Source of the DNA: Acidobacteriota bacterium
Lineage (GTDB): Bacteria; Acidobacteriota; Terriglobia; Acidiferrales; UBA7541
Direction: 5' to 3'
Length of the DNA stretch: 49,824 nucleotides
Assembly: GCA_003223325.1 (NCBI GenBank)
Contig: QHYS01000039.1
Span: forward strand, 1-49,824
The translations under genes and the position numbers were made by a program. Below, piece after piece: positions 24,983 through 26,811 of this stretch (its first letter is position 1; each line of letters begins with the position of its first letter). The notes under the pieces are model-generated. The model was given only the letters and a program-made list of their open reading frames with translations, ran no database searches and was not told where the DNA came from.

Positions 24983-25802
24983 TTAGCGGGCCGTAGCAGC
25001 CACGCCCTCTTTCTCGATGGGCGCGCCCACCAAATTTCCCCATTCGGTCCAAGAGCCGTCATAATTTTTCACGCGATCGTAGCCCAGTAGATACTTCAGC
25101 ACGAACCAGGTATGCGAGCTACGTTCGCCGATGCGGCAGTAGGCGATCACCTCATCTTTGCCGTTTACTCCCTTGGAGCCGTACAGCTGCTGCAATTGGT
25201 CCGCGGTCTTGAAGGTGCCGTCCTCGTTGGCGGCCTGGGCCCAGGGCACATTGGCGGCAGTAGGAATATGGCCGGCGCGCTGTGCAGTCTCGCTCATACC
25301 CGGGGGCGCAATGATCTTTCCGATTCTCGACGATCGCAAATACATCTTCCTTGCGAGCGCGTATCGATTCATCCGGACCGCTGGCGTGATAGGTTGCCGG
25401 AGCGATTTTCGGCGGCTCGGTGGTCACTGGGCGTTTTTCCTCGAGCCATTTTTTGCGGCCGCCGTTGATTAAGCGTGCGTCCTTATGTCCATAATACTTC
25501 AATTGCCAAAGAGCGTAAGCCGCGAACCAATTGTTGTTGTCGCCATAAAGGAGAATCGTGGTGTCATTGGAGACGCCGGACCGGCCCAGCAACTGCTCGA
25601 GCGCCGATTTGGTGATCAAATCGCGACGGATATTATCCTGAAGCTGCGTCTGCCAGTTCCAGCCTACCGCGCCGGGGATATGGCCCTGATCGTAAGCGCT
25701 TGTGTCAACATCGACTTCCACTAAGCGAACTTTCGGGTCGTTGAGGTGCTGGGCAGCCCATTCCGTGGATACCAAGACTTCCGGGTGTTTGTATTCAGCC
25801 AT
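24983..25802 (-). pseudogene. sseA: Thiosulfate/3-mercaptopyruvate sulfurtransferase, internal deletion and frameshift
   Basis: The first 185 codons give the N-terminal rhodanese domain (VSTEWAAQHL, DQGHIPGAVGWNW, LYGDNNNWFAAYA, LINGGRKKWLEE). After ENRK, near 25317, sense continues only in another frame: [20 protein letters not shown], then the active-site loop YCRIGERS and [10 protein letters not shown]. The segment usually linking the two (of the DVRSPxEF type, about 14 residues) is absent, and AAG at the joint is shared by both sides, which looks like a microhomology deletion. An intact enzyme would move sulfur from thiosulfate or mercaptopyruvate through the active-site Cys. As written no full-length protein is made. 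The start has a strong ribosome site (AGGAGG) and a structured leader upstream. Confidence 0.85.
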
Positions 25803-25839
25803 GCGCTTACCTCCTCAAAACGAAAATAGAGCCCATAAA

Positions 25840-25876
25840 AAAAGCCCACCGTCGTTCGATTTGGCGGTGGGCTTTT
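25840..25876 (-). terminator. Strong intrinsic terminator or attenuator before the sulfurtransferase
   Basis: Read leftward, AAAAGCCCACCG and CGGTGGGCTTTT form a perfect 12-bp stem with a 13-base loop, followed by a run of seven T. It lies 180 bases after rpiA and about 38 bases before the sulfurtransferase start. It can end rpiA transcription, or act as an attenuator in the leader of the sulfurtransferase gene. Confidence 0.85.
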
Positions 25877-25940
25877 CCAAAACCGGGCACTGTGGAATTC
25901 GACCTCTAGGTTCCGAGCCTGCCGCCAAATGAAATTGGCC
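25859..25940 (-). promoter_or_regulatory. Structured leader with candidate antiterminator pairing
   Basis: On the minus strand ATTTGGCGG (25922-25930) is exactly complementary to CCGCCAAAT (25859-25867), which covers the top three pairs and part of the loop of the terminator. The same upstream segment can instead close a GCCAA/TTGGC hairpin (25924-25939). Further upstream AGCGAC and GTCGCT form another stem. The mutually exclusive pairings suggest attenuation. I do not recognise a named riboswitch. Only three terminator pairs are directly contested, so the case is not closed. Confidence 0.45.
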
Positions 25941-26058
25941 GACAACAGCGACCGGGGCAGTCGCTATACGCCGAGCTGAAACTGCAGGGTGCCATGGGGG
26001 ACAAATTACACCACCAACGGTTTCTTAGCAATCGTGGAGGTGGAGGCTCGCCGCCCGG

Positions 26059-26811
26059 CTAATCGAGAATCAAGTCGCATTGACTGAGGGGCACAGGTGG
26101 CTTGCGCGGACGCAGTACCATGATCTCCTCTCCTTCGGCAATAAGAGCAGCATGCGCCAAGCCCAGAAATAATCCGTGTTCGACGACCCCGGAAATCTCC
26201 TTAAGCCTCATGGCTAACCCGCGAGGGTCCGCGATGAGGCCAAAATCGCAATCCACGACGTAATTCTGTTGATCGGTAAGGAAGGGCCTGTCTGGCCTCA
26301 GCTGGTCCATTCGCCATAAGGGACTGCCGCCGAGTTCTCCAACCTCATCCATGACCCACGGAGTGGCGAAAGGTGTGACTTCTAATGGCACGCGGCGCCG
26401 GCCAAGCTGCGCGACACGTTTGGAAGAGTCCGCTATGACTACAAAGTGCCGCGACGCCCGGGCCAGAATTTTCTCGCGTAGCAGCGCGCCCCCTGCGCCC
26501 TTGATCAAGCTCAGATCCGGGGCGATTTCGTCAGCACCGTCGACCGTGAGGTCCAGGCGTGCTCCGCGCCGCGGTTCAGAAATCGATATGCCGAGCTCTT
26601 TAGCCCGGGCCGCTGTGTGCAGAGAAGAAGCCACGGCGTTTATTTTTAGTTCTCCCTGACGTACCGCTTCCGCCAGCAAGGCCAGAAAAAAGCTGGCCGT
26701 CGATCCGGTCCCCAAGCCAAGGAGCATATGGTTCCGAACGTATCGAACGGCGGCCTGCGCTGCAGCCTGCTTTTCTTTTTCTAACTGTTCGCCGGTTTTT
26801 GAAGAGCCCAC
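26059..26811 (-). CDS. rpiA: Ribose-5-phosphate isomerase A
   Basis: This enzyme interconverts ribose 5-phosphate and ribulose 5-phosphate in the pentose phosphate pathway. Motifs: GLGTGSTASFF (phosphate loop), DLTVDGADEI (catalytic Asp region), IKGAGGALLREKI with the active-site Lys, and VTPFA. The C-terminal part continues to a normal family end. I use a GTG at 26811, giving 250 residues; the frame is open to 27000, but that part overlaps the divergent glycosylase gene and does not look like RpiA. Usual length is about 220-235, so translation may begin slightly later. No ribosome site stands out. Confidence 0.92.
   Translation of the reverse strand: MGSSKTGEQLEKEKQAAAQAAVRYVRNHMLLGLGTGSTASFFLALLAEAVRQGELKINAVASSLHTAARAKELGISISEPRRGARLDLTVDGADEIAPDLSLIKGAGGALLREKILARASRHFVVIADSSKRVAQLGRRRVPLEVTPFATPWVMDEVGELGGSPLWRMDQLRPDRPFLTDQQNYVVDCDFGLIADPRGLAMRLKEISGVVEHGLFLGLAHAALIAEGEEIMVLRPRKPPVPLSQCDLILD

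Follow-up and report, generated by a model that had tools for sequence, protein, structure and literature searches.

A predicted cysteine-coded transcription attenuator upstream of a sulfurtransferase gene in Acidobacteriota and its copies in the class Terriglobia

The leader of a sulfurtransferase gene located in a 49,824-nucleotide stretch of Acidobacteriota DNA (the window) is, as judged by comparison with its relatives, a real and conserved cysteine-coded transcription attenuator and a member of a class-wide regulon, the response to cysteine being predicted from the anatomy of the leader and the content of the genes it precedes. The preferred reading, to which a probability of about 0.88 is assigned, is that of a ribosome-mediated transcription attenuator which takes cysteine, in the form of charged Cys-tRNA, as its signal and belongs to a sulfur regulon. 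The type of mechanism is already known; the regulon across the Terriglobia is one of which no description was found. A survey from 2010 holds almost no predicted attenuators of Acidobacteria with an associated function (PMC2965389), and no report of a Cys-coded attenuator in Acidobacteriota or Terriglobia was found within the literature searched. One attenuator family of the Acidobacteria would gain a clear and testable function, an amino acid signal and a regulon spanning functions from sulfate activation to encapsulins.

Anatomy of the window leader

All elements of the attenuator are located on the minus strand, and the leader is read from 26058 to 25803, between the stop codon of rpiA (26059-26061) and the ATG of the sulfurtransferase gene (25802). 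A first-pass annotation had pointed to a perfect 12-bp terminator with seven T before the gene and to an upstream 9-base segment complementary to the loop and the top of the stem. Both are present as described; the 9-mer ATTTGGCGG of region 2 is the exact complement of CCGCCAAAT in region 3, and the distance from the terminator to the ATG is 34-37 bases. An alternative GCCAA/TTGGC hairpin (25935-25939 and 25924-25928) and a further stem, AGCGAC/GTCGCT (25960-25965 and 25947-25952), which had been described as well, are also present and formed in the minimum free energy (MFE) fold, but the second of these is missing from the sister leader L008 and is, on this comparison, probably incidental. 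The first reading had overlooked the promoter and the leader ORF, which is rich in Cys and encloses region 2 (Table 1). In the window this ORF lacks a Shine-Dalgarno motif.

Table 1. Elements of the window leader and the gene that it precedes
Feature	Position	Strand	Remarks
-35 element TTGCTA	26026..26031	-	promoter motif found before 36/36 leaders
-10 element TAATTT	26003..26008	-	7 nt 5' of leader ATG
Leader ORF, 29 codons, probably leaderless, MAPCSFSSAYSDCPGRCCRPISFGGRLGT*	25906..25995	-	Cys enrichment, promoter spacing
Cys17-Cys18 codons TGT TGT	25942..25947	-	16-19 nt 5' of region 2 core
Other two Cys codons of the ORF	25984-25986, 25957-25959	-	
Region 1 of window genus, local competitor GCCAA	25935..25939	-	pairs with TTGGC in region 2
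Region 2, antiterminator arm ATTTGGCGG	25922..25930	-	within leader ORF
Region 3, CCGCCAAAT	25859..25867	-	5'-arm top and loop of terminator; partner is region 2 or region 4
Intrinsic terminator hairpin (regions 3 and 4), 12-bp stem	25840..25876	-	
Terminator stem arms, AAAAGCCCACCG with CGGTGGGCTTTT	25865-25876 with 25840-25851	-	
Terminator T-run, 7 T	25837..25843	-	
Shine-Dalgarno GAGGAGG of sulfurtransferase	25810..25816	-	
Controlled gene, two-rhodanese-domain sulfurtransferase	24986..25802	-	PF00581 in both halves

When the upstream leader is shuffled with its dinucleotides kept, 114 of 5000 shuffles contain an exact complement of at least 9 nt to the arm and loop of the terminator. The fold of the leader as a whole surpasses that of its shuffles by a moderate margin (z about -1.9), and the window sequence taken alone is therefore only suggestive of attenuator pairing. 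At the level of sequence the pairing question is settled by comparison with relatives.

The C-terminal half of the controlled sulfurtransferase matches 3-mercaptopyruvate sulfurtransferase below the cut-off. The reading frame of the gene is broken near 25320, and an intact relative of 288 amino acids matches in two frames. The break falls within 25180-25325 on the minus strand and may be an assembly error or the mark of a young pseudogene.

Conservation of the leader and covariation of its helices

The comparison set consists of 36 orthologous sulfurtransferase leaders from four genera, in a family of which 62 of the 89 genomes encode sulfurtransferase relatives and whose more distant members carry the gene without the leader. 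What is kept throughout the set is the promoter, the near-leaderless Cys-rich ORF and the mutually exclusive 1:2 and 2:3 helices, together with the terminator, which has one decayed exception. A simple terminator finder with a one-mismatch rule overlooked many leaders and alignment was used instead. In the sister genome G003 (L009:1316-1467) a frameshift in the leader ORF coincides with loss of the T-run; this attenuator may have decayed as a unit or may reflect an error of the draft assembly.

In three genomes, all from the genus of the window, rpiA adjoins the sulfurtransferase gene upstream on the same strand, and there the hairpin could be regarded as merely the rpiA terminator or the end of a small RNA, with everything else due to chance. 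This reading is hardly credible and was rejected on account of relatives that have the leader and lack rpiA. No rpiA lies upstream in 33 of the 36 leaders (genera g2, g10 and g11 and the fourth genome of the window genus), a count in which a few loci have a contig end within a few hundred bases. The terminator is thus not conserved only as the end of rpiA, which the first-pass annotation had named as a ground for abandoning its attenuator reading. Moreover, promoter and ORF are located between rpiA and the terminator, and cysD and cysG, too, are preceded by a poly-Cys ORF with this terminator motif behind it.

All 36 sulfurtransferase leaders have a promoter composed of TTGCNN, or more broadly TTGNNN, a spacer of 16-18 nt and TANNNT or a near form, the -10 element in one leader being the variant TGTAGT. 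The gap between the -10 element and the ATG has a median of 7 nt (6-9 nt in 34/36) and only one of the 36 ORFs is preceded by a Shine-Dalgarno-like motif. Since transcription starting about 6-8 nt after the -10 element would fall at or near the AUG, the leader ORF is probably leaderless, with the mRNA starting at the AUG or a few bases away. The ORF is 22-31 codons long in nearly all leaders and encodes Cys-rich peptides in which CCCxCC is frequent, for example MQICCQCCACCCCMFCADVSSGAGRLGS and MSIFPQKNAQLCICCMCCMRVSSGAGRLTF. Cysteine makes up 17% of frame 0 across the 36 leaders; the other two frames have 7.8% and 2.0%, and the long ORFs of the window 1.35%. TGT outnumbers TGC in the leader ORFs (109 to 62), the reverse of the preference in the long ORFs (42 to 93). 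The window peptide contains four Cys in 29 codons (p = 0.0006 taken alone), which is fewer than in most relatives. A search of 29 leader peptides against Pfam and NCBIfam gave no family match.

Region 2 reads TCTTCTGGCG in most leaders and is located in the ORF directly 3' of the Cys codons, and region 3, which comprises the top of the terminator 5' arm and the loop, is of the CGCCAGAAGA type in relatives. Most relatives also possess a region 1, a competing partner of region 2; in other genera it is of the CCAGAAGA type, lies 5' of the Cys codons and pairs with region 2, and in the window genus the 1:2 competitor is weak (5 bp). The covariation proposed earlier as a check on orthologous leaders is found in both helices. 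Compensatory changes include TTCTGGCG with CGCCAGAA, CCTCTGGCG with CGCCAGAGG, GCTCTGGCG with CGCCAGAGC and TTTGGCGG with CCGCCAAA. Cells altered on both sides number 15 in the 2:3 helix (shuffle mean 6.8) and 17 in the 1:2 helix (shuffle mean 5.4), with 0/500 shuffles as high in either case, and in slid controls pairing is far worse than in the true 2:3 and 1:2 registers. With 90% of it paired and hardly any variation between leaders, the terminator offers little information by way of covariation. Region 2 also prefers its own region 3 over those of other leaders (0/5000 permutations for 95 leaders, 9/5000 for the 36 sulfurtransferase leaders alone), although the covariation and permutation tests alike remove relatedness only in part. 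The attenuator reading of the first-pass annotation is thus upheld by exclusive pairings that covary in homologues and by a leader that persists without rpiA.

Proposed mechanism and comparison with known systems

The last Cys codon is located 16 or 19 nt 5' of the region 2 core in most leaders, that of the window among them. Ribosome stalling was modelled by removing the sequence up to 14 nt beyond the stalled A site before folding. With the ribosome stalled and region 4 not yet made, the 2:3 helix folds in 34/36 leaders, and with the ribosome at the stop codon the terminator folds in 36/36, the geometry and fold values of L008 having to be disregarded as its region 2 core was misplaced. In full-length MFE folds the terminator prevails in most leaders even behind a stalled ribosome, which implies that the switch has to be kinetic and decided during transcription, as in classical attenuators.

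From this arrangement we infer translation of the ORF, stalling of the ribosome and the direction of control. The transcript would start at or beside the AUG of the 29-codon Cys-rich ORF, which would be translated while the RNA emerges. When cysteine is ample the ribosome would reach the stop codon and mask region 2 within the ORF, leaving regions 3 and 4 to pair into the intrinsic terminator, and the sulfurtransferase gene would not be transcribed. When Cys-tRNA is scarce the ribosome would stall on the Cys codons, approximately 16-19 nt 5' of the region 2 core, so that region 2 would remain free to pair with region 3, no terminator would form and the gene would be transcribed. A ribosome stalled at Cys17-18 of the window ORF would also mask the local competitor GCCAA. 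If the ORF is not translated at all, region 1, or in the window perhaps the GCCAA hairpin, would capture region 2 and favour termination.

The same elements could be read as a nascent-peptide sensor, in which metal binding or modification (persulfide, oxidation) causes the Cys-rich peptide to arrest its own ribosome, so that the RNA structure is determined by this arrest and not by a shortage of Cys-tRNA. CxCC patterns are indeed frequent and the C-terminal SSGAGRL is fairly constant. However, the codons of SSGAGRL are those of region 2, and its constancy is explained by RNA pairing, while the Cys residues vary in number and placing (CCC, CCCC, CICCMCC, CxxxCC) and keep a steady spacing only relative to region 2. 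The targets are sulfur-assimilation genes and not metal genes, and aspartokinase is preceded by a version of this scaffold with Thr-rich codons, as is expected if codons are read. Such a sensor is therefore considered improbable.

A metabolite-binding riboswitch for a sulfur compound, which the sulfur genes downstream and the mutually exclusive helices might bring to mind, is less probable still. An Rfam search at the gathering score, which covered riboswitches, T-boxes and other leaders, gave no match, in agreement with the earlier remark that no named riboswitch fits. Extending this search to E values of up to 10 yielded nothing credible, the best being Thr_leader (E 2, 15 bits against a cut-off of 55). 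What is conserved amounts to three short helices besides the promoter and the coding ORF, and it includes no aptamer-like core. The first-pass suggestion of a sulfur-metabolite sensor is hence retained in spirit as far as a sulfur signal is concerned, but the evidence points to translation of Cys codons, and with it the supply of Cys-tRNA, rather than to a ligand-binding RNA.

Cysteine attenuation by the ribosome, the reading preferred here, places the leader close to classical attenuators of the trp, his and thr operon type, with which it has in common an ORF of regulatory codons, exclusive 1:2, 2:3 and 3:4 helices and an intrinsic terminator before the structural gene. The features by which an attenuator is recognised are found in it, namely clustered codons of one amino acid in a short ORF at the predicted transcript start, stall codons suitably placed to free or cover region 2, a terminator and antiterminator that exclude one another and covary, a GC-rich hairpin with a U-run before the structural gene, and controlled genes in the pathway of the amino acid presumed to be sensed. 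Unlike the classical systems, the codons here are those of cysteine, the ORF is probably leaderless, region 2 lies inside the ORF, and several copies per genome precede different sulfur operons.

Mycobacteria possess cysteine-responsive leaderless ORFs with contiguous Cys codons, according to the accounts that cite this work (Canestrari et al. 2020, cited in PMC9031893, PMC13236596). As far as these accounts describe them, the mycobacterial polycysteine ORFs share with the leaders studied here the runs of Cys codons before sulfur genes, leaderlessness being deduced in the present case from promoter spacing. The leader peptides of mycobacterial cys operons have no conserved terminator hairpins (PMC1262725), whereas an intrinsic terminator and a covarying antiterminator are found here, in a different phylum. 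The window leader would work like the mycobacterial polycysteine ORFs and yet is not filed as a member of that group because of its conserved intrinsic terminator. Cysteine attenuation would thus be extended to a phylum far from mycobacteria, together with a terminator that mycobacterial leaders lack. Ribosome-mediated attenuation has also been predicted for uORFC-8-2, located before cysS in Rhodobacterales (PMC8632094), which likewise has tandem (two) Cys codons and a U run at the terminator. In contrast to the many sulfur-assimilation genes targeted here, it serves a single gene in Alphaproteobacteria and has two prominent stems and an unrelated sequence; cysS was assigned as target to 0/76 other copies of the present leader, with a reference set that holds no cysS and with four copies unassigned.

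Copies in the genome and in the Terriglobia

A covariance model (R1) was built from the 36 leaders and finds four copies in the genome of the window. Besides the window leader itself, these precede cysD-cysN (leader peptide MIAGATAKFACRQMCCCLCCKSPLSGVPRCAI), cysG (MLTCCSKVCEALYCACCSVSSGAGRLLV) and, with a weaker match, a sulfite/nitrite reductase gene (MGEWQIMCACCCRITAPRCAG). A scan of the 6.1-Mb genome gives just three occurrences of the terminator pattern CCCACCGCC..GGTGGGNTTTT, all of them behind a poly-Cys ORF, and none of a control pattern; the motif is therefore not a general terminator. Matches to R1 are found in 71 of 95 genomes of the order (6/17 genera), in 131 of 399 genomes of the class Terriglobia (42/136 genera) and in 19 of 396 genomes of a sample of the phylum. 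Those outside the Terriglobia are weak, and two of them precede cysK without a convincing poly-Cys ORF, so that no claim is made for the phylum.

Sulfur or cysteine genes follow 59 of the 76 further copies inspected, a biased estimate given that the copies were drawn from the better R1 matches and labelled by way of reference proteins from the same set. These targets comprise sulfite/nitrite reductases (21), CysD (15), family 2A encapsulins (7), CysG (5), CysK (4), TauE (4) and one each of CysH, Sat and a solute-binding protein, with identities taken from Pfam and NCBIfam. It is proposed, at what we would call even odds, that sulfur assimilation in Terriglobia, family 2A encapsulins included, is controlled largely by one modular cis attenuator that has a leaderless poly-Cys ORF and is present in many separate copies, whether these replace a dedicated regulator protein or act next to one, and that a version recoded for threonine has arisen from this scaffold in front of aspartokinase. 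A poly-Cys leader combined with the CCCACCGCC terminator would also provide a simple marker for sulfur genes, unknown ones included, in these abundant soil bacteria.

Poly-Cys leaders precede seven family 2A encapsulin shell genes (L211:2975, L212:922, L214:3057, L217:3017, L226:880, L231:2959, L256:3126), identified by NF041162 for L212 and by similarity for the other six. Family 2A encapsulins, which carry a cysteine desulfurase, are linked to sulfur metabolism (PMC8049743) and for this reason fit a sulfur regulon. The position of these leaders suggests that the compartments would be made when cysteine is short.

Aspartokinase or aspartate-semialdehyde dehydrogenase follows 6 of the 76 copies, whose leaders are mostly Thr-coded. 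Thr-rich ORFs on the same scaffold are located before aspartokinase at L116:3915-4083, L236:956-1111, L213:944-1104 and L209:923-1080, with MMSIAKKRITSKSSKSTTSTTTMKKTITASGDGKNS as an example of the leader peptide, and are likely to represent a threonine attenuator, as far as codon content can tell. The leader at L122:3618-3775, before aspartate-semialdehyde dehydrogenase, has few Cys and a Thr-Thr-Ile-Met stretch. Further poly-Cys leaders precede genes for TonB-type receptor, porin-like, FadL-like and PQQ-dehydrogenase-like proteins (L118:3986-4145, L120:3609-3761, L246:974-1121, L220:3005, L210:3196, L241:3088), which possibly serve in the uptake or use of sulfur compounds.
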